NCBI GenBank assembly: GCA_030280995.1
Contig: JASXTE010000017.1
Location: 4,980,501 to 5,044,500 of the forward strand
DNA from: Hemileia vastatrix
Lineage: Eukaryota > Basidiomycota > Pucciniomycetes > Pucciniales > Zaghouaniaceae
Length of the DNA stretch: 64,000 nucleotides
Direction: 5' to 3'
Positions within the stretch are counted from its first letter, which is position 1. Every line of letters starts with the position of its first letter. The notes under the pieces are model-generated. The model searched no databases and was not told the origin of the DNA. It saw only the letters and a list, made by a program, of their open reading frames with translations. Of the stretch, positions 2,881 through 45,181 are shown one piece after another. A program made the translations under genes and the position numbers.

Positions 2881-3354
2881 TTATATGGTGTCACCACATC
2901 AGGGTCACCTGGATGTGGGAAAGCATTTTCAGGGTAAGGCTCATCAATTGGCCAGGAAACACTATTTTCTCTTTTATCTTTATTTCATTTTAATTAACTT
3001 TTTAATCTTTATTTCATTTTTATTATTTACTTGAATTTTTATTCATTTCATTTTATTTTTATATTATTTTTCTTAATTTATTTCTATCTAAAATCATTTA
3101 AAGTTTATTTGAAGGTTTATCTACATCAAGGTGCACTTGGATGTGGGTAAGGTATCAGGGGATCAGCTCATCAATTTGCTGGGGGATAACATTTGTAATT
3201 ATTATTTATTTCATCCTATTATTATTCATTTCATTTTAATTTCTCAGCTCTTTTATTTTTTGGGCAATTTTTTTTAATTCTTTTCAAGTTTTTTTTAGTA
3301 TGTTAGTAGTTTTAAGTGGCAATAAATAAAATAAATAAATAAAAATAAAAATAA
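2881..3354. other. AT-rich spacer with a diverged direct duplication
   Basis: Two related stretches at about 2896-2960 and 3122-3186 share a CATCA..GGTG/CACC..TGGATGTGGG core followed by TCAGCTCATCAATT-like sequence and then TTATTTCATTTTAATT-type runs. No gene is visible. Confidence 0.5.
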
Positions 3355-3571
3355 CAATAAAAATAAAAATAAAAATAAAAATAAAAATAAAAATAAAAAT
3401 AAAAATAAAAATAAAAATAAAAATAAAAATAAAAATAAAAATAAAAATAAAAATAAAAATAAAAATAAAAATAAAAATAAAAATAAAAATAAAAATAAAA
3501 ATAAAAATAAAAATAAAAATAAAAATAAAAATAAAAATAAAAATAAAAATAAAAATAAAAATAAAAATAAA

Positions 3572-3602
<31 letters not shown>

Positions 3603-4112
3603 TAAAAATAAAAATAAAAATAAAAATAAAAATAAAAATAAAAATAAAAATAAAAATAAAAATAAAAATAAAAATAAAAATAAAAATAAAAATAAAAATA
3701 AAAATAAAAATAAAAATAAAAATAAAAATAAAAATAAAAATAAAAATAAAAATAAAAATAAAAATAAAAATAAAAATAAAAATAAAAATAAAAATAAAAA
3801 TAAAAATAAAAATAAAAATAAAAATAAAAATAAAAATAAAAATAAAAATAAAAATAAAAATAAAAATAAAAATAAAAATAAAAATAAAAATAAAAATAAA
3901 AATAAAAATAAAAATAAAAATAAAAATAAAAATAAAAATAAAAATAAAAATAAAAATAAAAATAAAAATAAAAATAAAAATAAAAATAAAAATAAAAATA
4001 AAAATAAAAATAAAAATAAAAATAAAAATAAAAATAAAAATAAAAATAAAAATAAAACAAAAATAAAAATAAAAATAAAAATAAAAATAAAAATAAAAAT
4101 AAAAATAAAAAA
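3355..4112. repeat. Hexanucleotide microsatellite (AAAAAT)n, about 126 units
   Basis: About 760 bp of AAAAAT repeats with two small interruptions: a shortened unit near 3576 and an A-to-C change near 4058. Read on the other strand it is TTTTTA/ATTTTT and gives long FYFY or FIFI open frames, which are artefacts of a repeat period divisible by three. Confidence 0.97.
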
Positions 4113-4186
4113 AAAACAAATTTTTTTTATATATCTGCTAATTATTATTGTTTTCTCTATTTAGTGATTTATTAATTTCTTTTTTA

Positions 4187-9659: not shown

Positions 9660-9750
9660 TGTGGTTTCTTGCCATCCAGCTGTTTCCTCGCTGTGAATAA
9701 AATTCCTAATTTCAAGCCAACCTCACCATAAGGGAAAAGAAGTGGAAGTG
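9660..9750 (-). pseudogene. Helitron Rep, segment 3 (LPLLFPYGE motif)
   Basis: Short minus-strand segment encoding LPLLFPYGEVGLKLGILF, a hallmark of Helitron-like N-terminal domains. It is separated from its upstream half (23640 and above) by the gypsy-2 insertion; the AAGTG target duplication lies inside the codons for SLP. Confidence 0.8.
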
Positions 9751-10562
9751 TGTCACCGGACGACCTACGCACAAGGTTGAGGGTGTTCCTGGAAGTGAGA
9801 TGGAGAGAGGAGTTTAGAAACTTTGTCGAGGCACAGAGGAAATGTTTGAGGAAGTGATTCAAAAATGACTAGAAGGAAGAACTACTGCTTTGAGATACGT
9901 TTGAGGAGAATTCTAATATAAGTTAAAGGTAATATTAAAATTCTTAAAATCTCACGAAGGGTTGGAAACTCAATAATCAAAGGCTTTAGGATTTAGAAAT
10001 GATTACTGAGAAAATAAGGAAAGATACAATAATAATGATTTAACTAAAGCTTTACCACTATTAACTATATATATGTTCTATAATTTAATTCTAAAGAATG
10101 TCGAACCAAAAACCCAACCCCTTTTATATCCTTTACTCCTCCTTGCATTGACCTCATACCCATCCACTATTCCGCACACCACAGACCATTAAAAAAAACA
10201 TCCATTACACCTGGACCCTCCTCACTAACATCCGTTAACCCTTTAATCCCACACTATCCATTCCATCCCTGCTCACTACCCCTTTATAATAATTCACAGA
10301 CATTAAATAAACCTTTTAGTGTACTATTACATTGACTATTGTGCTGTGCGTCGCTTATTGAGGAAAATACTGAGACACACTATTGAGAGATTGACTAATT
10401 TAGATTTAGAGTTTTAGGCTAGCGCAGTTGAATAGTGAGTACACAAAGGAAAGTCGCAGTTGCTATGGAGAATTGCTTTCTGCTCTTCGAGTATGGATTT
10501 AGACCTCTGTATTATTGATTTAATGAGCTGCTTTTGCCTCGAGTATCACATGGGGTGTGACA
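9751..10562 (-). repeat. gypsy-2 3' LTR (left)
   Basis: 812 bp, starting TGTCACCGG and ending GTGTGACA on the plus strand. It matches 22830-23639 in direct orientation with scattered transitions. It is the 3' LTR with respect to the minus-strand coding direction. Confidence 0.93.
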
Positions 10563-10572
10563 GATTCCCAGG

Positions 10573-10580
10573 TATAAAAA
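10573..10580 (+). promoter_or_regulatory. TATA-like box of the gypsy-2 antisense gene
   Basis: TATAAAAA lies 11 bases inside the LTR boundary and 81 bases before the ATG at 10661. It is followed by a CCACACTA-like possible initiator and a CT-rich leader. The comparable gene of gypsy-4 has GCTAAAAAACC in the same position relative to its LTR. Promoter function is inferred from position. Confidence 0.5.
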
Positions 10581-10660
10581 ACGGGAGCTCCGTTGAGCGT
10601 GAGACATACTTCCCACACTAGTTTCCCTTTCCTTCTATTTTAATTACTTTATATTTTACT

Positions 10661-10960
10661 ATGATGGATTGTCCTACCCCAACTCCCACGCCTCCACACC
10701 CTAAAGAGGATGGGGGAATTGTTACCTGGCAATATTCCCAAGCATGTATGGCTTGTGAATCCATGGAATACTTCTGTGTGGAAAGCACAGCTACTGGAGG
10801 TCCTTGCCAGAAATGCGAGTTTTGCCAGTGGAGACAAGTGGCGTGCAATGCGTTAGCAAAAAATTTGGATATCGAACAAAGGTTTACCAAGACTAAATAT
10901 TGGGTAATACCGAAGACAAAGGAAGTGGTTGAAGACATATGGGACATGTGGATCGGGGAT
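10661..10960 (+). pseudogene. gypsy-2 antisense gene, exon 1 5' part (Zn2Cys6-type cluster), split by gypsy-1
   Basis: One hundred codons from the ATG at 10661 to the gypsy-1 insertion. The Cys spacing in ACMACESMEYFC...PCQKCEFCQWRQVAC is C-X2-C-X6-C-X12-C-X2-C-X6-C, the spacing of fungal Zn2Cys6 binuclear clusters that bind DNA. An additional Cys (PC) precedes the fourth ligand. The frame then continues (YWVIPKTKEVVEDIWDMWIGD) and resumes after the inserted element at 16494. The gene runs antisense to gag-pol and starts 98 bp inside the 3' LTR. It is unlike any retroviral-type protein; a regulatory role is inferred. Codon usage and the intron in the second half argue for a genuine cellular-type gene. 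Confidence 0.7.
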
Positions 10961-11281
10961 TGTTAAGACCTAAGAAGGTGGACTACCACTAGCGCTGATG
11001 CTAGCCTTAAACGGGACTGACTATGTTGAGTTACAACGGTGAGACTAACTAGACTGACTATGTTGGGGTTACCAACAGTGAGGGGTAGATGGGACTGACT
11101 ATGCTAACTAAGCAGTGAGACAAGAGAGTAATTGGATTACTTAATAAATTTTCCGATGAGGAGCGCTCCACAGCGCTTGCCCCCATATAACCCCCTTATG
11201 CAATATCCACTCTTCCGCCTCTTTACGATGCATAGCGCCCATAGTGCTCCTCCTCTCCACCTCTCAAACCAAATCCTAACA
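10961..11281 (-). repeat. gypsy-1 3' LTR (left)
   Basis: 321 bp, TGTTAAGACC...AATCCTAACA, matching 16168-16488. It is rich in AGCGCT words and GACTGACTATG repeats. Confidence 0.95.
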
Positions 11282-11293
11282 TTACCCCCTCTT

Positions 11294-14200
11294 TTACTCC
11301 TCCTGCCCCCTGCGCTCCTTCTCAAACTCCTTCAACTTTCCCTTAGCGTTCATCAAATTTTCCACCAGCTCCTAAGACCTATCTCCAACCCCATAACCCT
11401 TCCAATGCACTAAATACTGAACCTTTCCCCTATACACCCTCTTTGCAACAACCTTTTCCACCTCAAACTCTTCCTCATTTCCCACCTGGATTGGCGCTGG
11501 TTGTTCTTCCGGGGGCCCTGGGATCATATCTTCTCTGTGCTCTGTAAGTAATGAAATATTGAAAACTGGGTGTACTTGCCTCATTGAGATTGGTAGCTCC
11601 AGTTCGTAAGCTGAGTCAGATACTTTGCGCTTGACTTTGAATGGACCCACTTTCTTGTGATCTAGTTTAGCGCTGGGACGTAATGTGGAAAGAAAACGTG
11701 AGCTGAGCCAAACCTTGTCACCTACCTGTAGCGTGCGGTGTTGGGTCTTTCCATGATCTTGATGATGCTTCATTGCTTGCTGAGATAACCTAAGCGCTGC
11801 CTCTAGTTCTTGACGTATACTCAGTATCTTCTTGATCTGCTCTTCAGCTTCCGGGACTTGTAATGTGGATGGGGTACCAATTGAGAATGTTGGGTGGTAC
11901 CAATAGTTGGCATAGAATGGTGACATGCCTGTTGCAGCATGTGTCCTATTGTTGTACAAGAATTCCACAAGTGGTAATAGCTGTACCCAATCATCCTGCT
12001 GATAGTTAATGAAGTGGCGCAGGTATTGTTCAATTGCCTTGTTTACTATCTCAGACTTCCCATCAGTTTGTGGGTGCCATGCTGTTGATAAGATGGGCTT
12101 AATATTCAGTTGTTCATACATTGCTTTCAACAACTTAGAGTTAAAGGTACTTCCCCTATCTGATACTATACTATCAGGCAATCCATGCAATTTCCACACA
12201 TGCGCCACCATTAAATCTTCAATACCCTCTGATGTAACCTTGGTGGTGGTGGGGACAAAGTGCTCCATCTTGGTGCAGCGGTCAACTACTGTGAGGATAG
12301 CATTCTTTCCTTGTGACTTGGGTAACTCCACTATAAGATCGTAGGAGAGCTCTTTCCATGGCTGTTTGGCAATGTTTAGCAGGGTCAGTGGTGTCGTTGT
12401 TGGACTAACCTTGTTCCTCTGACAAGAGTCACATGCTGCTACATAGCGCTGAATATACACCTTCATGGACTTCCAGTAAAAATTGCGATTTACCAGTTCC
12501 ACTTTCTTCAGCAGTCCTGGGTGCCCTGCCATTGGGGAATCATGTCTTGATTTGACTACCTGCCTTTTGAGTTCTTCATCATTTGGCACCACTATCCTTC
12601 CATTACAATATAGCGCTTCCCCTTCTAGGTGATACTCCTCCAGTCCTTTCCTTACCAATACCTCTTTTGATAAGAGTGCCTTCACTAACTCCTGTACTCC
12701 CTCATCCTTTTCCTGTCCCCTCCTTACCCATTCCATCAACTCCTCATCCCCTAATTCCACCTCATCTAGGATTACCCCCTCCTCAAAGTCCCCCTTCAAT
12801 AGAGTTGCGCCAACCGTATGAAGCTGGTCCGGTGCTGGGCGCAAATCAGAATGTTGCAATAGCGCATCAGGTTTGCCACTTTTCTTCCCTGGTCTGAATG
12901 TAACAACAAAATTAATGCTACTCAGCAGTTCTGCCCAGCGCACTTGTTGGCGAGTCAACTTTTTTGTGGTCAGGAAGGTTTCCAAATTTTTATGATCTGT
13001 GTAGATGATGGCTTGGAGCCTGTGAGGCCCTCCTTCCAAGTAATGGCGCCAGGTGCGTACCGCCTCTACTAGTGCCAATAACTCCTTATCGTAAATCTCA
13101 TAGTTCAATTCGGCCCCTAGTAGTGTACGTGACAAATATGCTACTGGGTGGAGGACATTTTCATCATCATATTGGGATAGAACTGCACCAAGTGCAAAAT
13201 CTGAACAGTCACATTCAAGAACAAATGGCTTCAATAAGTCAGGGATTGCAAGAATAGGGGCTGTTACAAATTTTCTTTTCAGGTAGGTGAACGCATATTG
13301 TTTGCTTTCTGTCCAGATGAACTTGGCTTCCTTCTTTGTCAGGTCGTGCAATGGCCGACAGACGTGGGAGTAATTTTCAATAAAGCGGTGGTAAAAATTT
13401 TCAAAACCTAAAAATGACTGGAGTTCCTTTACTGAAGTTGGTTTTGGCCATTCCGTTACTGCCTTTACTTTCTCCTTGTCCATTTGCACCTTATACTTTG
13501 AGATAATCATTCCTAGATAGGGGATTTCACTCACAGAGAAGACACATTTCTCTGGTTTTAACCACACTTGGGCCTCCTTTAAACGCTGCAAACAGTCCCT
13601 CACACGTACCTGGTGTTCCTCCATTGATCTGGAGTAAATCAAGATGTAATCTAGATACACCGCTACATCTATCCCTATTCTATCTCTAAAGATGCTATTG
13701 GTGAAATGTTGGAACGTGGAAGGCGCATTACATGGACCAAATGGCATTACCAACCATTCAAAATGACCAAATTTAGTGCAGAATGCCAGTTAGTGTTCAT
13801 TGCCTTCCTTCACCCGTATGTTATGGTAGCCTGCCCTAAGATCTAAGGATGTGAAGATCTCCGCACCTAGAAGACTATCAATTAGCTCACTAGACAGAGG
13901 AAGGGGGTATCTGTTTTTTACCGTCAGCGCGTTTAACCTCCTGAAATCCATACAAGGTCTTAATGACCCATCCTTTTTTCCTGCAAAGATCACAGGGGCA
14001 GCCCAGGGGGATTTTGATTCTCTGATGAAACCATTCTTCAGATTTTCATCAATCATCTCTTTTAGCGTTTTCAATTCCAAGGTTGACAATGGGATTTTGC
14101 GGCTAAATTGAGGTGTTGTGCCTGGCATCAGATCAATGGCAAAGTCATATGGTCGATGAGGTGGCAGGGTCTTGACTCCCCCATCTTTGAACAGTGGTAA

Positions 14201-14698
14201 GAATTCCCAATAAGCTTCAGGGACCATTTCTCTGAGGCTTCTTGTTGGCTTTGAGGTTTGGACCTTGGCTGCAATCTTGGCGGATATGTTCTAAGCTGTT
14301 TCATTGCATTCCAGTTCCTCCTCTTCCTCCTCCTCCTGCGCCCCCTCCCAGTCCTGGAACTTAGCATCAAGAGAAAGTGTCAGCTCTTGCAGCAAGTCTA
14401 CTGATGATAGGAGACTCTCTGGGCAGGGCCCCTGACCCCTGAAGGGGCCAGGGGGCAAATGGTTTCTCTGCACCATCCACCTTTCCCCATCCTTGTTGCA
14501 CCTTCTCCATCTCTTGCTGCACTTTCTCCCCTCCTTGGCGCTCCCTGTTGGCGACCCATCCCCAGCCTGCTGCTTAGAATCAAGAGGAAGCATCAGTTCT
14601 GGCGGCAAGTCAACTGATGATAAAAGAACATCAGAAGACTCGCCAGGATGGGCCCCTGACCCCTGAAGGGGCCAGGGGGCCGATACTTTAGCGCCCAT
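11294..14698 (-). pseudogene. gypsy-1 pol: reverse transcriptase, RNase H, integrase, chromodomain
   Basis: One minus-strand frame from 14698 to the natural stop at 11294-11296, broken by a TAG near 14291, a TAA near 13790 and a TAG at 11372. Order: linker; RT (KDGSLRPCMDFRRLN, DLRAGYHNIRV, VMPFGPCNAPSTFQ); RNase H-like thumb and domain (ECDCSDFALGAVLSQ, YEIYDKELLALV, TDHKNL); HHCC zinc finger (HDSPMAGH...CDSCQRNK); integrase with D, D and E in LSYDLIVELP, VSDRGSTF and a DGKSEIVNKAIEQ segment; and a chromodomain (FEVEKVVAKR...YLVHWKGYG) that is cut by the 11372 stop but continues in frame to 11294. The RT active site, normally YLDD, reads YLDY (near 13650), so the polymerase would be dead even without the stops. 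Length is normal for a chromovirus pol. Confidence 0.92.
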
Positions 14699-15053
14699 GT
14701 CTCCTCTCCTTCCAATCTATTTGTGGGTTGTAGCGGTCCAGCCATGTCATCCCCAGTACCATGTCATACTGGTCCTTCAGGTTTGTTGCATATTCCCTGC
14801 ACTGTGACTCTTTTCCATCACACCAAAACCTGCAAAAAACCTTTTCTCTTACTTCTCCTCCCCCACCTGGCAACCCATCAAACATAATTAGGCGCCTAGG
14901 TTGGTCTAATTTCTCTTTTTTTATTTTATTCCTCTGTAAAAACTTGTTAGAAATAAAACAGTCTGTGGCCCCACAGTCCAGTAGGGCTCGTACATTCGTT
15001 GTGGCATCAAGGGTCATTAAAAGCAAGTTTAGTATAATACAATTATCATTCAC
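14688..15053 (-). pseudogene. gypsy-1 aspartic protease region
   Basis: A minus-strand frame with ALLDCGATDCFISNKFL, the retropepsin active-site segment, and LGMTWLDRYNPQIDW, the conserved downstream motif of fungal gypsy proteases. The catalytic triad usually reads D-S/T-G but here is D-C-G. This could weaken activity or be a Ser-to-Cys mutation. It lies in a different frame from both gag and the RT part, so the reading frame has been broken by indels or relied on frameshifting. Confidence 0.8.
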
Positions 15054-15136
15054 TTCAATTGGCTTACATGCTGATAATTCTTCTACTTAATTTCTCTCAT
15101 CCTTTCCCTCTACTCCGCTCCAGGAGGGCACAACCT

Positions 15137-16130
15137 TCACTCCCGAGCACTGTCTTTTACCTGCACCTTTCCTGCACTATCCTCCACTTCACTAATCCTC
15201 ACCTTCCCCCTGCACTCCCTTGCCAGATGACCACTACTCCCACACCTGAGACACAGACCTTTGCTCATGAGCCTCTGATAATTGTCATCCGACAACCTTT
15301 TCCTCCCACTAGCGCCACGTGCATTTGTTGCATTGATATCCATGGCGTTCGGTTCCCTAGCGCCGGCCCCGCTTGATGAGGCATAGCTGCGCCATGGACG
15401 AGCGCTACTCCAGCCATCTGTTCGTTGATGTGTGAACTCATTGTCAACTTGGATGGCCAGTTCCATGAGTGCTTGAAGGGAGGTTGGGCGAGGGTGGCTG
15501 ATTAGGGCATTTCTTATCTTCGCCGAGAGCCCATTCCTGAAGTGAAACATGAGCGCCCCTTCTCCCCAGGTTGTGACATAGCTGGTGTGGCCCCAAAATT
15601 CCGACACATACTCGGCCACCGAGTTTCTTTGTTGCAACTGATTGAGCGCATGCTACGAGGTTGTGGCCACATCTGGGTTCCCAAAGTCTAATTCAAAAGC
15701 CGCCATGAATCGACGGAAGGTTGTCACTGCCTGAGAGTTCTTGAGGAGCTCCTTGGTGTACGGCCTTGTCTGTGAGGTATGATATTGCAAACCCAATTTT
15801 CGCTCGCTCTTCTGGGAACTGATGTCCATTGAGCAAGACATAGAGGTTTACCTGCGACGCGTACTGGTCTGCCCGGGGGCCTCGTTTTCCATCAAAGATT
15901 GCTAGGACGGCAATCTTTGGACCTTTGACGAGTGGTGCTGGTGTGGGGGGTGGCGCCTGTGCTCTGGCTTTGGCTTTGGCAGCATCCAGCTCTGCTTCGG
16001 TGGGGCCACAATATGAGGGCTCCGCATTTTCTAAGCGTTCCATGAGCCTAGCGTTCTTTTCTTGCAGGCATGCCATCTGCTCTTGCATTTCTGTGAGGCA
16101 TGATGCATTGGGTTGACCTGCAGGGCCCAT
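15137..16130 (-). pseudogene. gypsy-1 gag
   Basis: The ATG at 16128-16130 begins MGPAGQPNASC. A coiled-coil-like stretch (MQEQMACLQEKNARLMERL) is followed by the capsid core (VLAIFDGKRG...LNGHQFPEERAKIGFAISYL). A frameshift near 15750-15830 moves to the frame with TTFRRFMAAFELDFGNPD, NSVAEYVSEF, MFHFRNGLS and a zinc knuckle CLRCGSSGHLAREC (CX2CX4HX4C). One TAG or TGA interrupts it near 15653. It packages the element RNA in virus-like particles. The frame structure shows decay; gag and protease are in different frames here. Confidence 0.88.
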
Positions 16131-16167
16131 TTTTCTTTGGTAGTGCCCCAATTAAGATCGGACAAAA

Positions 16168-16488
16168 TGTTAAGACCTAAGAAGGCGGACTACCACTAGC
16201 GCTGATGCTAGCCTTAAAGGGGACTGACTATGTTGAGTTACAACAGTGAGACTAACTAGACTGACTATGTTGGGGTTACCAACAGTGAGGGGTAGATGGG
16301 ACTGACTATGCTAACTAAGCAGTGAGACAAGAGAGTAATTGGATTACTAAATAAGTTGTCCGATGAGGAGCACTCCACAGCGCTTGCCCTCATAAAACCC
16401 CCTTATGCAATATCCACTCTTCCGCCTCTTTACGATGCATAGTGCCCATAGCGCTCCTCCTCTCCACCTCTCAAACCAAATCCTAACA
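16168..16488 (-). repeat. gypsy-1 5' LTR (right)
   Basis: 321 bp matching the left LTR with about 11 differences by eye, mostly transitions. It is the 5' LTR in coding direction; gag begins about 40 bases inside it. Confidence 0.95.
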
Positions 16489-16493
16489 GGGAT

Positions 16494-17129
16494 GACCAAT
16501 CAGAAGCAGCTGAGGAGGAAGTTGAGGATAATACGACGTCATGGGTAAAAAAAGGGTAGAAGAGGAGATGGATGAGTTGGTGGAGGAAGATGAGAAGGAA
16601 GTTCTTATTCCGAGACAGACGCCAAAAAAGCAATGGGTGTTCATCAAGGATGACAAAGAGGAAAAAGAAGTGGTGGTGGAGGTTACTCCAAAATTATTCT
16701 TAGAGACTGACCCCATATTCAAAGTAAGTCCATTCTTCTGTTTTTTCTTAGAAATTGTGTTACTGATGATCTTATTTAGAATACAGATATCATCGCAGAA
16801 GTTCCAAATGTGGAAACTGCGCCGTTGCCCCCAGTCGAGGCAAATCAACCAGTGGTTTGCTCGAGGGAGGATATCAAAGAGACTCTTGACCAGGTATGGT
16901 CAAAGAAACCTCAACAAGTTCAACAGACCAGGTTTATTGAAGATTTAAGCGGTGAAGTCAAAAGATTATCAATGCAGCTTCCTTCGACGTGGCCAAAGAA
17001 CTACTGGAAATTGGGGAAGTGGTACCGGTAGGAGAGGAAGAGGTTTTTGAAAAATGTAGGAAGGAGATAAGGGTGATTTTGGAGAAGATGAAGGGATTGG
17101 TTCGAGAGAAAATAAAGGAAAAAATTTAA
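16494..17129 (+). pseudogene. gypsy-2 antisense gene, remaining part (acidic middle, helical C-terminus)
   Basis: This continues the frame of 10661-10960 directly after the GGGAT duplication (DQSEAAEEEVEDNTT). The frame shifts at a run of seven A at 16546-16552, where one extra A would restore it to the following VEEEMDELVEEDEKE. An intron at 16724-16779 (GTAAGT, CTGAT branch-like word, TTTAG; 56 bp) joins cleanly to NTDIIAEVPNVETAPLPP. A second indel near 16975 moves to the frame ending VFEKCRKEIRVILEKMKGL...KEKI with TAA at 17127-17129. The product is acidic in the middle and ends in a charged helix, about 290 residues in total with exon 1. The C-terminus could be a dimerisation helix next to an acidic activation-type region; this is inference. 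Confidence 0.65.
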
Positions 17130-17935
17130 AATGGAAGGAGAAGAAAAATAAAAGTAGAAAAAATTTGTATTTATTTATTTTATTTTGTTGTTTTAATTTT
17201 AAAATTTTAATATTTTATTTTATAAGATTTTTGAGAGAAAAAAGAAAAGAAAGAAAAAATTTAAATAAGATTTTGTTTTAAATTTTGAAAGAAGAAAAGA
17301 AAGAAATTTTAATTGAAAGAGTTTCTAGTTTAAATTTTGAAAGAAAAAATTATGGAAAAAGAAATAGTTGCTTGAAATAATTTTTTTGGGAGTGTAAATT
17401 TAACGAAAGAAAAAATTGTTATTTATGAAAGTTTATTGATCAAAGTTTTGAGGAATTTTAGTTATTTTTTTTAAAAAAAAAGAAAGAAAGATAGAAAAAG
17501 AAGAGAAGAAATAAATTTTAAAAGAATTTAAAAGAAAGAAGTAATTGTTCAAAGAAATTTTTTAAAAAAAAAAGATATTTAGAGGTTGAAGTGAAATTTG
17601 AGAAAGATTGTCGTGTTGTGTTTGTGAAAAATTTTGATAGTTTGAGGGAAAATAATTTTTTAAGGAAAGAATGTAGGTAGAAAATTTGAAAAGAAAAGAA
17701 AAGAAATTTTAGAGAAATTTTAGAAGGTTTTATGAATTTTTTATTTATTTATTTTATTTTATTTTATTTTTTAAATTTTAATTTAACTTAATTTAAAGAA
17801 GGTTGAAAAACTTTTGGAAGAAAAAAAAGAAGAAAGAAGAAAAGAAAACAAAGAATACAGAAATTTTAGAGATAGAGATGTTTAAGATTTTAAAGAGAAG
17901 AAAAAAAAGAAAGAAAAGAAAAGAAAAAAAGAGTT
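17130..17935. repeat. Purine-rich low-complexity tract (GAAA/AAAGAAAG)
   Basis: About 800 bp of strongly strand-asymmetric A- and G-rich sequence with few C. It separates the 3' ends of two convergent gypsy-2 genes (antisense gene and pol). No gene seen. Confidence 0.85.
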
Positions 17936-20900
17936 TTAAGGTTTTGGTTTTAAAGGATATTTAAGATGAAAAGATTTGAGAAGTTTATGGGCGTTAGAAA
18001 CATTGATGGCTGGTTCCCAGGATGTTTTGTCTGAATCATCGAGGAAGCCTTCCCATTCCACGAGGTATTGAAGTTTCCCCTTGCGTATTCTTGAATCAAG
18101 GATATGGCTTACTTCCCACTCTAGATGGTCTTCTACTTCAACCGGTTCCGGAGGAGGTTGGTTCTTGCCCAGGTATGTTTCTCAAGCCAGTTCCAGGAGA
18201 GATACGTGGAAAACAGGGTGAATAGCCTGCCATTTAGGGGTTAGCTTGAGTCGAAATGCAGTTTTAGAGACTTCAGAGTCGATTTTGAATGGTCCCAAGA
18301 GTTTTTCAGCCAGTTTCTTTGATTCTTGAGTCGTTTGAATGTTTCGTGCGTCGAGACATACTTTGTCGCCTGGTTTAAAAGAAGGAGCAGATTGTCTATG
18401 TTTGTCGGCCTGCTCCTTGTATATTTGAATCACTAATTCCAAATTTGCTTTAAGTTCCTCTTGGAGTCGTGATATGGTTCAAAGATAATGTTCTGCAGGA
18501 TGATTAGTTCCTACATGGATTGAGTTGAATCAAGGATGTCTTCCATAAACAGTTTTGAAAGGAGATTGTCGTGTAGAAGAATGAGTCGAGTTATTATAAG
18601 CAAATTTGGCCAATGGTAACCATGTGGTCCAATCGTCTTGTTGATAACTGACATACATTCGAAGGTATTGTTCAAGGATTTGGTTGACCCTTTCTGTTTG
18701 CCCATCAGTTTCAGGGTGATAGGCCATGGAGAGATTCCTTGTGATATTGAGTTGTCAACACAGTTGAGTCAAGAATGTGGATACAAACAATGAACCTCTA
18801 TCTTAAATAATATCATTAGGTAAGCCATGTTTGGAAAATACATGTTCTAGAAACAATTTTGACAAATCTTCTGCTGTAGCAGTAGTAGTGGTTTTAATAA
18901 AAATAGACATTTTTGAAAATCTATCTACTATTACTAATATAGCATCAAAATTATTAGAAAGAGGAAGTTGAGAAATAAAATCCATTGATAAAGATTCCCA
19001 AGGTTTAGAGGGAGTAGGAAGCGGTTGAAGCAACCCATGCTTCCAGTGATGGGGAGCCTTATTCCTATTACATTCGTAACAAGCTTTTATATAGGCCTTG
19101 ATTTCTCTAGTCATTCCTGGCCAGAAGAAATCCCTGGCTATTAACTGGTAGGTTTTATAAACCCCAAAATGACCAGCTATTGGAGAATCATGTCGACTAT
19201 TGAAAATCCATAATTTTATTTTATTGTTGTAGAATATGACTACTCTACCTTCGAAAACTAATAGACCTGATTCAATACTAAATCTTTTGGCCCCTTTCTT
19301 AGAGAGTATTTTGTCTTTTAACCCTAAAAAATAGTTGTCCTTTGACTGAGCTTCGAGGATGTTGGATAATGGATTTTGAAACGATTGAATTGTCATTGAA
19401 TTAAGTTGATGAGTTGTTAACATTGATTCTTTGAAAATTGATTTCACATTTGCTGGGTTCTTGTCAGCAAATGCGTCCCCCGCTGTGGGTAAATGATGTC
19501 CTGATGTGACAAGATATCTGGGACAATGCAGTTCTTACCTGGGCGATAGGAAATAGAAAAAGGAAATTCAGACAAAAATTCAGCCCACCTGGCTTGACGC
19601 ATGGTTAAACCTTTGGAAGACATAAAGTATTTCAAAGCATTATGGTCTGTTAAAATTTGAAAAGGACTATCTAGGCTGAGAAGAAAAGAGTGCCACTTTT
19701 TAAGACAATGAATAATAGCTAAAAGCTCTTTGTCATGAATTTCATAATTTAATTCTGCTGCAATGAGTTTGCGTGACTCAAAAGCAACAGGATGAAACAA
19801 TTTTGTTTCAGGATTTAATTGAGAAATGACCCCTGAGATAGCATAATTGCTAGCGCATGTCTCGACAATTGTTGAAGCAGAAGGATCAAAGTGTCGAAGA
19901 ATTGGAGCTGTGGTGAATGCAGTCTTCAATGCTTCAAATTCCTTTTGTGCTGTAGAATTAAAAACAAAAGGAATATCTTTTCTAAGAAGAGAAGTAAGAT
20001 TGGAAATAGTTTTAGAGTAATCTTTAATAAATCTTCTATAGAAATTTGAAAAACCCAAAAATCCTTGGAGGGATTTAACGGTTTTGGGTTCAGGCCATTC
20101 CAGGACTTTTTGGACCTTTTTGTTGTCCATTACTAAACCATCAGTGGATAATGTAAAACCCAAAAAATTGATTGATTTAAGATGGAATTCACATTTATTG
20201 TGCTTGGTGTAGAAACCGTGATCTCAAAGTTGATTTAGAACCTGTCAAATATGATGAATATGTTCATCCAGCGTCTTCGAGAAAATTTAAATATCATCTA
20301 AATAGACGACAACAAATTGTTTGACAACATCTTGGAAGATGTCATTAACAAAAGTTTGAAAAGTTGATGTTGCCTTACAAAATCCAAAAGGCATGACTAA
20401 ATATTCAAAACTACCAAATCTAGTGCGCATTGCAGTCAGTGGTTCATGACCTTCCGCAATGTGAATAAGATTATAAGCACCTCTAAGATCAATTTTAGAA
20501 AATAAATTAGCACCATTAAAAAGGGTAAGAAGCAATGACATTGGAGGAACAGGATATGCATTCTTCTTAGTGACTGTGTTGAGCTTTCTATAGTCAACAC
20601 ACAACCTAAGACTACCATCCTTCTTCTTTACAAAAAGAACAGGGGAGCCGGTTGGAGATTTACTGGCTCTGATGAAACCTTTGGCTACATTCTCTGCAAT
20701 GTAGTCTCAAAGAACTTGAGATTCGTCCTTTGACAAAGAATAGACAGGACCTGCCGGAGGTACTGGACCTATTAACTTTATTTGGTGGTGGTAGGGTCGA
20801 TGAGGTGGTAACTTATCGGCCTTGCAGATTGAGAAGACATTGAGGAAATCATGATAGATTTCCTGTAGAGTTGATTTAATGGCTTCAACATTGATTTGGT

Positions 20901-21584
20901 TGTCCTCATCATCTTTGAGAGAATCTTTCAAGGGAAGACCAGAATTGAGAGAGCAGAATTCGATTACTTCGAGGAAATTTAAATCCTCTTCGAGTGAAGT
21001 CATTGAGCTAGAAGGGTTAGCCAATTGCTCATTTAGAGAAAGATCAGATGCTTGCAAGTCATCTGGCAGAGATTTGTCCTCTAGCAGGACATTGTCAGGC
21101 GGGTTGTTTAACTCCTTATTGACCTGCATTGAAGAATTAGAAATATACTTAGTGTGTGGGGTTATCAATCCCTGTGACCAATCAATTTCAGGATTCCAAT
21201 GCGTTAAAAAGTCATGGCCAAGAATGGTATTGTCCATCCTTGGGGCGTCCAAGACTGATAATTCCCACTCGAAGGGGGGAAAGTTCAGAAAGTTGAAAAC
21301 CCATAAAACTTTCTTAATTACCCAATATTTGGGTTCCTCTGATTCAACCAAGTAAATTGGAGTTTGATTGATATCTGTAAATGTCAGTTGTAACTTCTCG
21401 GCAAAAGATAAACTGACAAAAGAAATTGAAGCTCCAGAGTCTATAAGACAACTGAAGGGGGTATCCTCCTTGAAAAGAATGAATCTCAAGCGGTTTAAGG
21501 CAACTCCAGTCCTTAAGACATGGAGGTTCTGTGCACTGGGAGAGATAAGATAGTTTGCTTTGCACACAAGTAAACTATCCACTA
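17936..21584 (-). pseudogene. gypsy-2 pol: protease, reverse transcriptase, RNase H, integrase, chromodomain
   Basis: Pol enters through the -1 frame at 21585. Order: protease (SCLIDSGASISFVS; LGHDFLTHWNPEIDW), RT ([47 protein letters not shown]), RNase H (TDHNALKYF), HHCC (HDSPIAGH...CYECNRNK), integrase ([26 protein letters not shown]) and a chromodomain near 18150-17970 (WEVSHILDSRIRKGKLQYL, then TSWEPAINVSNAHKLL), ending with TAA at 17936-17938. The RT motif YLDD is intact. TGA at 20707, TAA after YLDDI (near 20286) and further stops, plus a frameshift near 19446, inactivate it. Most stops fit CGA-to-TGA or CAA-to-TAA. The gag family and the CX2CX3HX4C knuckle resemble rust-fungus elements (memory-based inference). 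Confidence 0.92.
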
Positions 21585-21591
21585 GTTTTTT
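21549..21591 (-). promoter_or_regulatory. Probable -1 programmed ribosomal frameshift signal between gag and pol
   Basis: The last gag codons contain the slippery heptamer A AAA AAC (21591-21585) in the correct phase, immediately followed by the gag stop TAG (21584-21582). A 5-nt spacer leads into an 8-bp perfect stem (GATAGTTT at 21579-21572 pairing with AAACTATC at 21556-21549). The 15-nt loop has further partial pairing (CTTG/CAAAG). A one-base slip back puts the ribosome in the protease-pol frame. The same heptamer is used in several retroviruses and in other retroelements. Confidence 0.75.
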
Positions 21592-22754
21592 GACTTCGAA
21601 CTAGTACCTTCTCTTTCCTTCAATTTTACACAATCTTCCAGCTTGTGCTTACCCCCACAATACATGCATAACCCATTATCTGCTCTTCTCTTCCTCTCAG
21701 ATTCTTTAAGCTCCCCTTTAGGATCCAGTATTTTGCTGATATTGCCTGGGGTCGAGTTTTTAGGTCGAGGCTTGTCCTTTCCCTTATTGGGTTTGAATTG
21801 AGTTGTTTGTGAGTGTGAAGAAGGTCCCAATTTAAAATTTAGGCCTTGAGATTTGTTGTTGTATCGACGATGTTGAAGTTGTCCTTGGTAAACGCCATTG
21901 AGTTCAAGGGTTTGATCCATTAAATCCGTTAAAGTAGTCATTTTCTGACCGTGAAGATTTAACTGATCCAGAATCCTCGAAGGAAGTCCCTTTTTGAAAT
22001 GATACTTGAGGGCAGCATCATTCCAACCTACTTGAGTTTGAAGTGCTCTGAAGTTTGAGATATATTCAGAGGCTTTACCACTATCACTCGTGCAAAGAAA
22101 ATCAAGTTCAATTTCTGCGTTGTCAGTTTCATTAGGGTCACCTAACAATGTGAAGAGTTGGTCTTCAAATTTTTCCCAATTATTGATGAGTAAGTGGGTT
22201 TCTGTTGAAGAGAGCATGAGAAGATAAGGTTCGAACCATCTTGCTGCTTTTCCGGCTAGGAATGAAGAAGCGTAAACAACCTTTGATTGGTTGTTATTGA
22301 AGGTTCGAGGGTCATTATGGAACAGGAGCTTGCAGGTTTGCAAGAAAGGCTGCAATCTGTCTGCATGTTCTCCATTGAATTTATCAGGAGATTTCATGGA
22401 AGGAGTTTTGAATTTAGATCCCTCTGAAGACGTTGAATTTAAAAGGGTCTTCATGAAAAGTCTCATGAAATCTTCCAGAGAATTAGATGGTACAGGTTCT
22501 GAAGGTTGACCAGAAGGGTGATTAGCAGGGGTGGATGGTGCCTTGTGCATTGTATCCTCTTCTTCTTCATCATCAATAGAGTCATCAAAATCTTGTGGAA
22601 TGTCTTCTACAGATTGGACTGAATGTTGCCGTTCCAATAGGACGAGTGGTTCCAAGGAGTGAGTGCGGGAAACAGGCTGTGTGGCTGTTGGCCTGCCTCT
22701 GGCGCGAGCTCTAGTAGTAGCGCACGGAGGAGGAGTGCATTGAACAGGTGCCAT
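21582..22754 (-). CDS. gypsy-2 gag
   Basis: Intact 390-residue frame from the ATG at 22754 to TAG at 21582-21584. Basic Arg/Pro-rich N-terminus, acidic stretch (DDSIDDEEEEDT), capsid-like retrotrans_gag core (DKFNGEHADRLQPFLQTCKLL, ASSFLAGKAARWFEPYL, LDFLCTSDSGKASEYI, LKYHFKKGLPSRIL), a basic linker and a zinc knuckle CMYCGGKHKLEDC (CX2CX3HX4C). Gag forms the virus-like particle and binds element RNA. The frame is free of stops, in contrast to pol. The slippery site just before its stop suggests that pol was made as a Gag-Pol fusion by -1 frameshifting. Confidence 0.92.
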   Translation of the reverse strand: MAPVQCTPPPCATTRARARGRPTATQPVSRTHSLEPLVLLERQHSVQSVEDIPQDFDDSIDDEEEEDTMHKAPSTPANHPSGQPSEPVPSNSLEDFMRLFMKTLLNSTSSEGSKFKTPSMKSPDKFNGEHADRLQPFLQTCKLLFHNDPRTFNNNQSKVVYASSFLAGKAARWFEPYLLMLSSTETHLLINNWEKFEDQLFTLLGDPNETDNAEIELDFLCTSDSGKASEYISNFRALQTQVGWNDAALKYHFKKGLPSRILDQLNLHGQKMTTLTDLMDQTLELNGVYQGQLQHRRYNNKSQGLNFKLGPSSHSQTTQFKPNKGKDKPRPKNSTPGNISKILDPKGELKESERKRRADNGLCMYCGGKHKLEDCVKLKEREGTSSKSKN

Positions 22755-22829
22755 TTTAAGAATTTAGAAAACACCTGAAAAGGGACGTAGTAGTAGAAAG
22801 AATGAGAACTACGGAGAATTAAATTATAC

Positions 22830-23639
22830 TGTGACTGGACGACCTATGCACAAGGTCGAGGGTGTTCCTGGAAGTGAGATGGAGAGAGGAGTTTATAAAC
22901 TTCATCAAGGCACAGAGGAAATGTTCAAGGAAGTGATTCAAAGATGACTCGAAGGAAGAACTACTGCTTTGAGATACGTTCGAGGAGAATTCTAATATAA
23001 GTTAAAGGTAATATTAAAATTCTTAAAATCTCACAAAGGGTTGGAAACTCAATAATCAAAGGTTTTAGGATTTAGAAATGATTACTGAGAAAATAAGGAA
23101 AGATACAATAATAATGATTTAACTAAAGCTTTACCACTATTAACTATATATACATTCTATAATTTAATTCTAAAGAATGTCAAAACAAAAACCCAACCTC
23201 TTTTATATCCTTTACTCCTCCTTGCATTGACCTCATACCCATCCACTATTCTGCACACCACAGATCATTAAAATACACCCGTTACACCTGGACCCTCCTC
23301 ACTAACATCCGTTAACCCCTTAATCTTCCACTAACCATTCCGTCCATTCTCACTACCCCTTTTTAATAATTCACAGACATTAAATAAACCTTTTAGTGTA
23401 CTATTACATTGACTATTGCGCTGTGCGTCTCTTATTGAGGAAAAGACTGAGACACACTATTGAGAGATTGACTAATTTAGATTTAGAGTTTTAGGCTAGC
23501 GCGGTTGAATAGTGAGTACACAAAGGAAAGTCGCAGTTGCTATGGAGAATCGCTTTCTGTGCTTTGAGTATGGATTTAGACCTCTGTATTATTGATTTAA
23601 TGAGCTGCTTTTTCCTTGAGTGTCATGTGGCGCGTGACA
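22830..23639 (-). repeat. gypsy-2 5' LTR (right)
   Basis: 810 bp, TGTGACTGG...GCGTGACA, direct repeat of 9751-10562. Differences are scattered and largely C/T or G/A. Confidence 0.93.
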
Positions 23640-24249
23640 AAGTGACCATTGGGAATATCTGGGATGTAATACTGATATCCTTTGAAGGAGGCCAACTATT
23701 TGCTCCAGAATGATATCCCTAAAGCCTTGAAGCTCCTCACCACTTTCATGAATGATCAAACCTACTTCATTTCAAATAGTGTAGTTATAGCCTCGTAGTT
23801 CAACATTTGCGGGAGAGGTACTTTTGAGGCAGAGTTTGATAGGGGAGTTGGACTGAGCAAGTTTTTCTTGAGATGTTTTGAACAATGCAACAAAAGGATT
23901 GCATCTGTTCAAAATTTCTTACAAAGACATAAACACAGGGAGGAGAGCATTTTCATGCACATTTTCCACTCAATGTAAGGCCTTCTGTGGAGGATCATGA
24001 TGAGTAACATATATTTGTGAAAATTTTGCAGCACCATCTATTGGTGGTAGAAGTAATCCAATATATTAAAGCAGATCACCAGATATTTGGAAAGTAAATT
24101 AACCTTTTAGTCCCCAGGTTGAATGATCAAATTTCGCACCAAGAGAAGTTATTTCCAAGGAATTATTATGTTTTCAAATATTTTTCCTGAAGTTATTGGC
24201 ATCTGAAGAAGTAATTTGAATTTGAAAGTTAGAAAATATTTAGGCAAAA
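23640..24249 (-). pseudogene. Helitron Rep, segment 2
   Basis: Minus-strand sequence with NFRKNI, SLGAKFDHSTWG, LLLPPIDGAAKFSQIYV and FRDIILEQIVGLLQRI...LHPRYS in the order known for Helitron-like N domains. At least four in-frame stops (TGA or TAA/TAG, several explained by CGA-to-TGA or CAA-to-TAA) and small shifts interrupt it. It runs directly into the gypsy-2 target duplication and resumes at 9750. Confidence 0.8.
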
Positions 24250-33750: not shown

Positions 33751-34532
33751 TGTCAAGGGGTCCTTTTGGGTCTAGAAGTTTATTCGAGGTTTTTACGGGG
33801 TATTTAAAGGTTTTAATGGTCTCTCAACAAAAAGTACGTATTACTATGATTATTTTACTCAAATGAAAGAGGTAGTGTTAAAATATCAATATAGATTATA
33901 GATTAGAATTACGATGTTGTATATACTAAGGTTATAAAATATAGAAATAAAGGTTGGATTATAATTGTAATAATAAAGTAAGTGATGAAGGAATGATCTG
34001 AAAAGCACAAAGTAAGAGGCCTTTTATAGGCAAAACATGAGGGAATAAAATATACGGAATTTACATCATATATTTTAAGAATATGAGAAAAAGAATGAAT
34101 GAAAGGAGTACATATATGACATAAGAATTAAATAAACTGGTACGTCAACAAGGGCATCAAATTTATTAGCAATAAAGTTTGAGTTCCTTGGACTGTCACA
34201 ATTAATTACACAATAATTAATTAATTATATTACTTTCACAGGATTCCAGATCTCTCACTGAAGTAATATAATTGTTTTAAAGTTTTTTTATTATATTTTT
34301 ATTATTAAATTCTATTCCCATTGACTTATACCATTGAGCACGGTGTTAGGGAGTAAAATTGTAAGGGAAATTTTATTTAAACTAATCAATTATACTACTT
34401 ATAGTACTTAACTAGTTGATTGTAAGTAATACTTAAGTAGATAATTAATTATTAGTAAGAAGAAGGGGCATGGCTTCAACTCAGTAAAATAATTAATTAT
34501 TGTACCAGTTAAGTCTAGTAGCCTGGCTGACA
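33751..34532 (-). repeat. gypsy-3 3' LTR (left)
   Basis: TGTCAAGGGG...GGCTGACA on the plus strand, 782 bp, direct copy of 41663-42444. Confidence 0.96.
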
Positions 34533-34566
34533 CTCCCTTACTCTAAAAAAAACAATAAAAAAAATG

Positions 34567-37500
34567 CTATGATTTTTTCTTTTTATACTTTTTTAGTAGA
34601 GTAGGAAGATTAGATATCTCCCTCCCAGGTATCCAAGAATCATATTCAGATGATTTATTCTTGAATCTCAATAAGTATTCTGTACCTTTTTCAGCAGTGA
34701 CTATTCTGTCATTTAGAATTTTTTCAATTTCTTCTGTTTCAGTGATTTCATTTGGGGTTTTCTTTGGTCTTCCCCTCATTTTTGGAAATAAATCACTATT
34801 GGATGTGTAAGGTTTCAAAATAGATATTGGAAAAACAGGATGTTTTCTGTCATATGGAGAATACAAAATAACCTCAACTGCATTATCTCCAATCATTCTT
34901 CTGACAACAAATGGACCAACAAATGGATCTTTCAATTTGTTATTACCTTGTAAGTTGAAGTGGACTGTAGAAATCAACACATCATCACCCTTTTTAAAAG
35001 TGTATTCCTTATGGGATTTTTCCCATCTCTTCTTCTCATATTCAAATGATTTTTCAATACATTGTTGAGCATGATTTCTGCATAGTTGTTGCATTTGAAG
35101 AAATAATTTTACACCAGGATTTATATGCAATTCAGGTATTTTGTTATTGAGAATTTGGGCAGGAGTATTTGGAACATATCCAAGCCAGAGCTCAAAAGGC
35201 TTTCTTTGAGTAACAGAATGAACAGTGCTATTATAAGCAAATTCCAACCCAAGAAGTAAGGTAACCCAATCATGAGTGAATCTGTCATTATCTTTATACT
35301 CAAGGCCAAAGGCACAATACCTTCTAATCATGTCCTCTAAAGTCTGAATCATTCTTTCAGCTAAACCATCAGTCTGTGGATGATGGGCAGTAGAAAGTTT
35401 CAGATCACAACCACAAACATCCATCAGAGACATCCAAAATTCAGAAGTAAATTTAGGGTCTCTATCAGAGATTATGGCTTTAGGAAAACCAGCAGTATTA
35501 AACATATGAGACCACCATAAGAAATCTAATTCTTTAGTGGAAACATCCTTGTGAGTAGGGATAAATTTACACATTTTTGTGAATCTGTCCACAATAACCC
35601 AACAAGATTTATAACCGTCTTTACCAGCAATAGGTAATCCTGTTACAAAATCCATGTTTATTATCTGCCATGGTGCATCAGGAGGTTCAATATGTTGCAT
35701 TAATCCTGCTCTTTTACCAGTTAATCTTTTTGATTTTTGGCAAGAATCACAAGATTCAACATATAATTTTGTGTCTTCAGACATATTAACCCACCAAGCA
35801 GTGTTCTTAATTCTGATCATTGTTTTTTCAAGATCAAAATGTCCAACTAATATGTCATCATGACAAATTTTCAAGATGATTTCTCTCATAGAAGGAGGAA
35901 TAACAATAACATTACTCAACTTTCTCTTATAATATAGATATCCTTCATCAATTGAAAATTTACCTTTTTCCAAAGCCTTCTGGTACTTTGGTGGAAGGGT
36001 TTTAATTAATGCCTGTATTGAAGCATTCTTTGGATCATTTAATATGGTGCATAACTTTTTCAAGTCAGTGTCCTTATCATATGAATCCAGAATAAGCTGT
36101 AATAGCTCTTCCTCCATATCAACCACATATATCCCATGTATATGAATAATTTCATCCTCAGTATCATAAGCAGGATTAGAGTCATTATTTGGTAAAGGTA
36201 GCCTAGATAACATATCCAAATTTTAGTAAACAATACCAGCCCTATGAATAATTGTCATTCTCCCTCTGTATTCTTGAACAGCCAACTGCCATCTGAACAT
36301 ATGTCTATTTGGTGTTTTCAAGTTTAAAAGGGATTTAACTGCACTGCAGTCAGTGACAAGTTCAAATTTCTGGTCATCTAGGTAATAATGAAGCTTTACT
36401 AGAGCCCACACTAAAGCTAAACATTTTAATTGAGTAGCACCATATTTCAATTCACTATTTCTCAAGGTTCTTGAAATATATCAAATTACTACTTCTGAAA
36501 CTTTATCATTTATCACTTGTTTTTGATGGAGGGCAGCACCAAGACCAATGAAACTGGCATCAGTGTGCAAAACAAATGGTTGATTAAAGTCAGGTAACGC
36601 AAGAATTGATGCTGACATCAAACAGTGTTTCATAGTGTCAAAAGCTCTTTGTCTTTCACTATTCCAGACAAAAGCAACATCCTTTCTAGTTAATTGGGTA
36701 AGGGGTAAAGCTATGACTTGGTAATTTTTAATATACTGTCTATAGTATCCACACATTCCCAAAAAACTTTAGAGCTCTCTAACTGTAGTAGGAGCCTTCA
36801 CCTGTTGGATGGCTGCCACTTTGTTCTGGTCAACACATATCTGTAAGCCTGAAACAACATGACCAAGAACTTTTAAAGAATGGAAACCAAATTTACATTT
36901 CTTCAAAGCAAGTGTCATATTTATTTCATCCATTTTCTGGAATACTTTACACAGGTGGTTAAATGGTCCTCAAATGTTTTTGAGAATATAATGATATCAT
37001 CAATATAAACCATCAGCCATCCTTCAATTATCTCTTGATGGAATGTGTTATCCATGACTTTTTGGAAAACTGAAGGGGCATTTTTAGGGCCAAATTGCAT
37101 CCTAATATACTTATAAATACCCATATGAGTGGCAATCATCAGAAAGTTCTGAGAATTTTTATCAACAGGTACCTGGTGATATCCTTTGTTACCATCCAAA
37201 CAGCTGATATATTTAGCACCCTGTAATGTAGCATGTATAGAGCTAATTCTAGGTAAAGGGTAGATATCATCAACAGTATAAGTATTTAGTGCTCTATAAT
37301 CACCACATAAACTGGCTTTATCTTTCTCATAAGAAATTATGACAGGTGAGATAACACAATGTTTAGGTGTTTCAACTACCTTTTCAATAATATTCATTTT
37401 TAAAAGGGTAGAAATATTGTCTTCAATATCTTTTCTCTTTGTGGGAGAAGCAGGATAAGGCTTCTTCTTTAAACTAGGTGGTATATCAGTTAATGGGCAA

Positions 37501-40500: not shown

Positions 40501-40589
40501 GTTAAAGGAGAACTTACAGAAGTAGGCTCATCATAATCAATCAAGTCTAGTTCCTCTTCACGTGCAGCAGAACCACTTTGGTCAGTCAT
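34567..40589 (-). pseudogene. gypsy-3 gag-pol, one long frame with eight premature stops and one frameshift
   Basis: Starting at the ATG 40589, all gag and protease-RT blocks lie in one frame to about 36955. A one-base deletion (FEDHL motif) then shifts to the frame that runs to the stop at 34567. Order: basic/Ser-rich N-terminus; coiled coil (39700-39300); gag core (PTFDGDSSSDWQQFICRI, ALMWYESVLL); knuckle CFKCNKPWQKGHVC (CX2CX7HXC variant); protease (VVLDSGVEGSVVS); RT (DYRALNTYTVDDIYPLPR, MVYIDDIIIFSKT); RNase H ([24 protein letters not shown]); HHCC; integrase D, D, E (INMDFVTGLP, IISDRDPKFTSEF, HPQTDGLAERMIQ); C-terminal chromodomain-like segment (IEKILNDRIV...YDSWIPGREI). Stops at 39753, 39744, 38175, 37977, 37533, 36769, 36481 and 36223 (lowest base of each) are TAA, TAG or TGA. 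All fit CAA, CAG or CGA hit by C-to-T. Confidence 0.94.
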
Positions 40590-44951: not shown

Positions 44952-45181
44952 ATTTGTGTCCTAACAGTTGTAGAAAGATTTTAAATACAGTTATTTTTTT
45001 GGTTTTCAGGGTTTTGTCAAAAGGACGTAATTAAACTGGTGCTTCAAGGAAGAGTCATAGGGTCTCAAACAATTGGACCAAGCTGCTATCAGAGGATAGG
45101 GTAGGACTGTAGTAGAGAATATAGTTGGTTTAAGTTTTTAGTGCTTATTTGTTTTTTTTTATTTTAGTAGTAGAAGGTAGA

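Follow-up and report, generated by a model that had tools for sequence, protein, structure and literature searches.

A conserved, spliced-looking antisense cysteine-cluster gene in the gypsy-2 chromovirus family of Hemileia vastatrix

We analyzed a 64,000-nucleotide stretch of the Hemileia vastatrix genome (GenBank assembly GCA_030280995.1, contig JASXTE010000017.1, forward-strand positions 4,980,501 to 5,044,500; hereafter the window) and found that a Ty3/gypsy retrotransposon within it, gypsy-2, carries a gene running against gag-pol between the end of pol and the 3′ long terminal repeat (LTR). Comparison with copies elsewhere in the genome supports the assignment of this conserved, spliced-looking cysteine-cluster gene to the gypsy-2 element family, and its reading frame is under strong purifying selection between subfamilies. 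Our preferred explanation, to which we give a probability of roughly 0.6, is that the gene encodes an element-borne regulator that binds DNA in the nucleus and is expressed from an antisense promoter of its own; because an antisense zinc-cluster-like gene has been preserved by evolution, the element probably makes a regulator of its own.

The gypsy-2 element occupies window positions 9751-23639 with its sense strand on the minus strand, and its two LTRs are 94% alike. An initial annotation of this DNA had placed a two-part plus-strand gene between pol and the 3′ LTR, and we recovered its parts: a TATAAAAA box at 10573-10580 (+), 10 bp inward from the LTR edge at 10562; a start at 10661, 98 bp from that edge; the first 100 codons of exon 1 at 10661..10960 (+), with a six-cysteine cluster at residues 29-62; the remainder of exon 1 at 16494..16723 (+), encoding an acidic part and a PKK basic patch; a 56-nt GT-AG intron at 16724-16779 (+); and exon 2 at 16780..17129 (+), with a C-terminus that appears helix-prone by eye. 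The pol chromodomain expected of such an element was found as well. The cysteine spacing C-x2-C-x6-C-x12-C-x2-C-x6-C reads as claimed, matching once in the window and in none of 200 dinucleotide-Markov windows. Separating the two parts is gypsy-1, a nested Ty3/gypsy element (10961..16488, minus; LTRs 10961-11281 and 16168-16488) that inserted inside exon 1 and is flanked by the target-site duplication GGGAT (10956-10960 and 16489-16493). The place and structure of the annotated gene stand once gypsy-1 is removed, but its intactness does not, as 16494-17129 shifts frame twice, near 16.54 kb in exon 1 and near 16.97 kb in exon 2. With gypsy-1 in exon 1 and the frame changed at both of these points, the window gene has been disabled three times and is a pseudogene.

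Further copies were sought in the window's own assembly (747.6 Mb, 791 contigs). A DNA search with exon 1 returned 3,534 first-look candidates, the best 40 of which were scored (90-100%), and 30 of these define loci L001-L030, L001 being the window. The presence of the gene in other gypsy-2 copies had been proposed as a check, and a gypsy-2 LTR lies directly upstream of it in 28 of the 29 non-window copies, with other sequence at that position in L020. All of these copies were seeded from the antisense gene, so the number of gypsy-2 copies without it is not given by them. The first ATG is conserved in 28 of the 29 copies and TATAAAA in 27. Fifteen copies were fetched over 9.9 kb, and 12 have the order LTR, antisense gene, chromodomain-integrase-reverse transcriptase (RT)-protease-gag, LTR, some LTRs being partial; L034 leaves the fetched stretch after an insertion, and L036 and L041 are interrupted. 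LTR pairs are 93.6-96.5% alike in six fetched elements and the window, and 5-bp target duplications are readable in five of the six other copies with two full LTRs, the exception being L042. When the search was seeded with the chromodomain instead, eight of the best 40 of 3,059 places (the window and seven others) adjoin a listed antisense match, on the opposite strand each time; this pairing was made by hand against the best-150 exon lists, and the other 32 places fall outside what these lists decide.

Copies of the gene are numerous and mostly decayed. In a protein search of the genome with exon 1, the best 150 of 6,823 candidates were nearly all full length and 74-100% identical, approximately 43 of them stop-free by hand count. 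Among the 29 first-fetched copies, exon 1 is open in L002, L009, L018 and L029, and only L002 and L029 lack a stop or frame break across both exons. At least four genome copies are open over exon 1 (~180 amino acids) and, past a 55-57 nt GT-AG intron, over exon 2 (at least 108 amino acids). Decayed copies repeatedly carry stops at the same codons, such as residue 46 (arginine in most open copies) in nine of 29, as methylation-driven decay would give. The CpG observed/expected ratio of the window is 0.28, and CpG-type transitions make up 12-25 of the 28-52 LTR-LTR differences across seven elements.

The intron is retained with its splice signals. In 44 exon pairs matched by hand between the best-150 lists for exon 1 and exon 2, the gap between the exons is 54-57 nt in 42, is 55 nt in 30 and is not a multiple of three in 38, so that in those 38 copies exon 2 continues the frame of exon 1 only once the intron is removed. 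Copies that keep the exon-2 region have GT at the donor in 26 of 26 cases, the extended GTAAGT in 24 of 26 and AG at the acceptor in 25 of 26. We further assembled a subfamily set of nine copies (36 pairs) from L002, L029, a divergent copy inside L044 and six copies chosen for a stop-free exon 1. In this set all nine copies share the codon at which exon 1 stops, and exon 2 starts N(P/S)D in seven, L061 and the L044 copy having no clear acceptor; a branch-like CTRAY motif precedes the acceptor by 17-18 nt in six of nine.

Selection on the antisense frame is clear in comparisons between subfamilies. The L044 copy is ~81% identical and adjoins an 88% LTR, and against it L029 has a synonymous divergence (dS) of 0.63 and a nonsynonymous divergence (dN) of 0.127, for a dN/dS of 0.20 (0.19 for exon 1 and 0.21 for exon 2 read in the spliced frame), compared with 1.13 and 1.43 in the shifted frames. 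Seven further copies give dN/dS values of 0.14-0.20 against the L044 copy. Across the 36 pairs of the subfamily set, exon-1 dN/dS is 0.06-0.21 in 31 pairs and 0.27, 0.46 and 0.53 in three low-dS pairs, the remaining two being saturated in dS and giving no value. Exon 2 was compared in the four of nine copies in which the intron is clean and exon 2 is open, yielding 0.15-0.38, against 0.9-2.5 in the shifted frames of two pairs. The dN/dS below 1 that the initial annotation had named as a check is therefore found between subfamilies, where values are far below 1 and frame-specific. This selection spans dS values near or above 1, which means that the protein benefits the element lineage carrying it.

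A second test, contrasting changes private to one copy with changes common to several, was made on 26 aligned copies, L008, L012 and L027 (exon 2 lost) having been dropped. Private non-CpG changes comprise 240 nonsynonymous and 66 synonymous (n = 306), a context-corrected ratio of ~1.10 that is neutral, as expected of dead copies. Non-CpG changes common to at least three copies comprise 22 and 24 (n = 46), a ratio of ~0.34 (Fisher p = 3.7e-5 versus private), and changes common to two copies give 0.58. For changes in at least three copies, the ratio is 1.16 and 2.40 in the two remaining forward frames and 0.60, 1.29 and 1.40 in the three reverse frames; the reverse frame with 0.60 shares its wobble sites with the antisense coding frame. 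CpG-type changes have little shared/private contrast (0.87 shared), as expected if CpG changes recur, and the first 100 codons by themselves offer few shared sites that are informative (six, or four in a smaller set of copies). In the same elements the shared and private ratios are 0.42 and 0.74 for gag, 0.63 and 1.06 for integrase and 0.47 and 0.68 for the chromodomain; RNase H has little contrast (0.74 shared versus 0.78 private) and the protease region has no such contrast (1.26 shared versus 0.96 private). In a separate indel set of 24 copies, which also excludes L020, a frame-preserving 18-base deletion recurs in four copies.

Exon 1 encodes ~182 residues and exon 2 at least 108, for a predicted protein of ~290-300 amino acids. 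Its cluster, C29-x2-C32-x6-C39-x12-C52-x2-C55-x6-C62, is well conserved among the 29 copies (Cys29 in 26, Cys32 in 29, Cys39 in 29, Cys52 in 24, Cys55 in 26 and Cys62 in 27), and in the subfamily set one cluster cysteine is missing from L062 and one from L064. A seventh cysteine at residue 49 was considered and rejected as part of the motif because it varies among copies (cysteine in only 13 of 29). An acidic stretch is followed by the basic patch PKK, mostly then R or Q, with KK in 25 of 26 copies. Zn2Cys6 proteins of the Gal4 type (PF00172) have the spacing consensus C-x2-C-x6-C-x5..12-C-x2-C-x6..8-C and basic residues in their first loop. The antisense-gene cluster has this spacing, and the acidic region and basic patch add to the resemblance. 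Unlike Gal4-type proteins, the gypsy-2 protein is encoded by a retrotransposon, scores below the Pfam cut-off, has its basic half second and carries no fungal transcription factor middle region that we found.

No relative of the protein emerged from wider searches. The exon-1 protein yielded one candidate and none scored against 5.8 billion proteins, and an eight-copy alignment yielded 7,987 candidates in the protein collection with none at E ≤ 10. IMG/VR scans with the antisense protein and with RNase H returned no relatives, nor did PDB sequence searches, which gave one match at E 1.2. A Pfam scan of exon 2 in three copies returned only a sub-threshold DUF3150 match in one. Two known kinds of additional retroelement gene were also rejected as identities for the gene: the TRP28 domain of Retand (PF04195) had no match in the exon-1 proteins or in the exon-2 proteins of three copies, and a retroviral-type env gene would lie in sense orientation downstream of pol, whereas this gene is antisense.

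We propose that the gene is an accessory gene of the gypsy-2 chromovirus family. Its transcription would run opposite to gag-pol and start at a TATA promoter of its own next to the 3′ LTR, to which the TATAAAA kept in 27 of 29 copies points indirectly, and the one 55-57 nt intron would be spliced out of the antisense transcript; in sense RNA the intron is no splice unit, which is why it would survive reverse transcription. The antisense position and own promoter mean that the spliced product could be made independently of genomic RNA. Its product would begin with a zinc-cluster-like region of six cysteines and continue through an acidic middle, whose PKK is a likely nuclear signal, to a helix-prone C-terminus, and the combination of cysteine cluster, basic patch and acidic region points to the nucleus. 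There the protein is predicted to bind DNA of its own family, in the LTR or leader, and to tune the timing of element transcription. The location, structure, copy number, splice signals, reading frame and purifying selection of the gene are established by the sequences. From these features we infer that it is transcribed and spliced in vivo and that its product binds zinc and DNA, enters the nucleus and acts as a regulator, and we favor a self-directed DNA-binding regulator because of the selection, the nuclear-type features and the antisense own-promoter position. The suggestion of the initial annotation that the gene could control its own element is plausible.

Several observations weigh against this explanation. 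The first loop reads ESMEYF and the second RWRRVA, and the basic residues with which classical Zn2Cys6 proteins contact DNA are missing from the acidic first half. The Pfam Zn_clus profile matches below cut-off in one of eight and two of nine proteins (best E 0.55, 10.8 of 21 bits) and is absent from the window copy, the L044 copy and four divergent subfamily copies. The description of the gene as Zn2Cys6-type consequently holds for spacing only, as no copy scanned reaches the Pfam cut-off. Pfam also finds no fungal transcription factor middle region in exon 1 or exon 2, and two AlphaFold models were unusable (predicted local distance difference test scores of 47 and 33). The weak Zn_clus matches place residues 52-64 on profile positions 3-15 (two of nine proteins), which hints that the cluster is permuted, its basic half coming after the other; this is a lead and no proof. 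On the side of selection, the shared/private test detects only weak constraint on exon 2 by itself (p = 0.04), only nine of 19 exon indels keep frame (24 copies, reference L029), six of the nine subfamily copies were preselected by absence of an exon-1 stop, and some dS values may be inflated by CpG decay (CpG observed/expected 0.28). Finally, a 16-base frame-shifting deletion in exon 1, lying between short direct repeats, is common to L011, L019 and apparently the window (near 16.54 kb; the window judged against L029); because a frame-shifting deletion is common to several copies, defective copies of the antisense gene may have spread in trans.

The main rival of the regulator reading is an anti-silencing factor, which would attach to the DNA or chromatin of its family and relieve the silencing that the host imposes by DNA methylation or small RNA. 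The CpG-poor window and the CpG-type LTR transitions are as expected for methylated elements, and strong selection and high copy number suit a self-serving factor, yet no Pfam family scores above cut-off, and we regard this role as unlikely while taking it seriously. Somewhat less probable again is a helper of the replication complex, in which the cysteine cluster would bind RNA or capsid and aid nuclear import or integration. The basic patch and helix-prone tail would suit such a helper, but a separate promoter and spliced antisense expression would detach it from gag-pol, a CCHC-like knuckle is already present in gag, and the cysteines are spaced as in a binuclear cluster rather than a zinc knuckle.

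Two further explanations are less likely still. The gene could be a captured host gene, a passenger that acts on host genes or has no function; the intron is what host genes have, and an antisense position is where an intron would be expected to outlast the cycle through sense RNA. We hold this to be improbable, as no distinct host gene stands among the best 150 of 6,823 exon-1 matches and selection over dS near or above 1 speaks against idle carriage. The window copy and most of the 29 first-fetched copies are broken, as they would be if the frame were a chance opening on the complementary strand, but frame-specific selection (shifted frames 0.9-2.5) rules that out, and the conserved intron phase and the chance control on the cysteine pattern likewise oppose it, leaving it a negligible share of our confidence.

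Antisense accessory genes of LTR elements are already known from plants and retroviruses. The HBZ protein of human T-cell leukemia virus 1 (HTLV-1) is a bZIP protein of an animal retrovirus. HBZ is a nuclear protein made from a spliced antisense gene that starts near the 3′ LTR, features predicted for the gypsy-2 gene as well. HBZ is mentioned in PMC11963269. Plant Ty3/gypsy elements such as Grande (gene23), RIRE2 and Retand (with TRP28) carry antisense additional open reading frames named aORF-3R, which excerpts of two papers place, like the gypsy-2 gene, in antisense between pol and the 3′ LTR in most copies, with an own upstream promoter in Grande and a possible nuclear or DNA-binding role, and for which the same excerpts still term the role unknown (PMC7264820, PMC11963269). 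The gypsy-2 gene has the position and orientation of an aORF-3R, counted on the gene-seeded copies, and the protein-level selection. The plant cases differ in their hosts and in that Retand, as excerpted, is a non-chromovirus with a TRP28 domain, whereas the gypsy-2 gene lies in a chromovirus, encodes a six-cysteine cluster, contains an intron and has no detectable relation to them. LTR elements of bdelloid rotifers keep a family-specific third open reading frame, as gypsy-2 does, and the excerpted text does not present these as antisense zinc-cluster genes (PMC5408684). Among the matches listed, open-access literature seen in excerpt holds no fungal, rust, chromovirus or zinc-cluster antisense case, in agreement with the initial view that such a gene in a fungal chromovirus was undescribed. 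What is new here is an antisense gene that is under selection, looks spliced, encodes a DNA-binding-like cluster and lies in a chromovirus whose candidate copies number in the thousands. The role of such an accessory gene thereby becomes testable by asking whether the DNA target of the protein is its own LTR. Element genes of this kind resemble host transcription factors, and genome annotation may wrongly count them among these.

The element itself has chromovirus organization. Flanked by the letters AAGTG as target-site duplications (9746..9750 and 23640..23644), gypsy-2 has a 3′ LTR of 812 bp with TG..CA ends (9751..10562, minus) and a 5′ LTR of 810 bp (22830..23639, minus). On the minus strand between them lie gag (22763-21585; PF03732, PF16297), which has its own CCHC-like knuckle, and a protease region (21600-20710; PF08284), followed by RT (20706-20290), RNase H (20223-19447) and integrase (19534-18185) as separate open pieces, 18185..20706 being split over several frames. 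A chromodomain follows integrase at the end of pol (18181-17939, minus; PF00385, E = 3.4e-12), and an AT-rich spacer (17130..17938) separates pol from the antisense gene. Next to the 5′ LTR, at the position of the primer-binding site, 14 bases of internal sequence are complementary to a stretch of the LTR, which may mark gypsy-2 as a self-priming element. Self-priming chromoviruses of the Tf1/sushi type, as we would label them, share with gypsy-2 the order gag-protease-RT-RNase H-integrase-chromodomain, the 5-bp target-site duplication and an LTR-complementary stretch after the 5′ LTR, and to our knowledge carry no antisense gene.

Other zinc-cluster genes were observed in the genome. A second multicopy gene with x2-x6-x12-x2-x6 spacing lies at window 6990-6350 (minus) and at L020:3012-3299 (+), open in L020 and with one stop in the window copy. 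Its genome search gave 10,971 first-look candidates, and because 147 of the best 150 are stop-free and 90-100% identical, this second family was probably amplified recently; its protein gave 14 candidates and no relative in the protein collection. A remnant, P0004, at window 5714-4190 (minus) reads CKHC...CDSCNSKKKKC followed by polar low-complexity stretches and is 38% identical to the L020 gene. Its residues 91-106 match Zn_clus profile positions 1-16 (E 0.0092, below cut-off), and residues 13-30 of the L020 neighbor gene match positions 17-35 (E 0.0067), both in swapped order; the sole match in an NCBIfam scan was to P0004, at E 0.2, in which we see no meaning. An LTR element at window 43679-55551 has LTRs 88% alike, RT and RNase H on the plus strand and a long stretch from pol to the 3′ LTR, and minus-strand 52413-52315 (ICNC...CNKCFSFHKTC; no Pfam match) is possibly a further decayed antisense zinc-cluster gene.

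These genes raise a tentative idea that we consider doubtful, if still a real prospect, namely that regulators with a permuted zinc cluster form a class of their own, carried by retrotransposons of this genome, with an acidic or neutral half first, a basic half second and x2-x6-x12-x2-x6 spacing. The class would take in the gypsy-2 antisense gene, the younger and more numerous second family at 6.99-6.35 kb (minus) and the remnants at 5.7 kb and possibly 52.4 kb; the absence of Zn_clus from four divergent subfamily copies makes it slightly less likely. If it were true, each element family could use its permuted-cluster protein to activate its own LTR or to evade silencing, and such regulators might help to explain how a 748 Mb genome filled up.

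The remainder of the window holds additional repeats. Both gypsy-1 and an element at 33753-42444 are Ty3-like, with pol ending near the 3′ LTR and no room there for an antisense gene. Rfam and tRNA scans of the 64-kb window returned no matches. An AAATAA hexamer array of ~800 bp occupies 3324-4120, and a long inverted repeat at 57856-58687 has 211-nt arms that are 100% complementary, with a second, 124-nt pair nested. A minus-strand open reading frame at 1798-2622 resembles a fragment of a PIF/Harbinger-type transposase.

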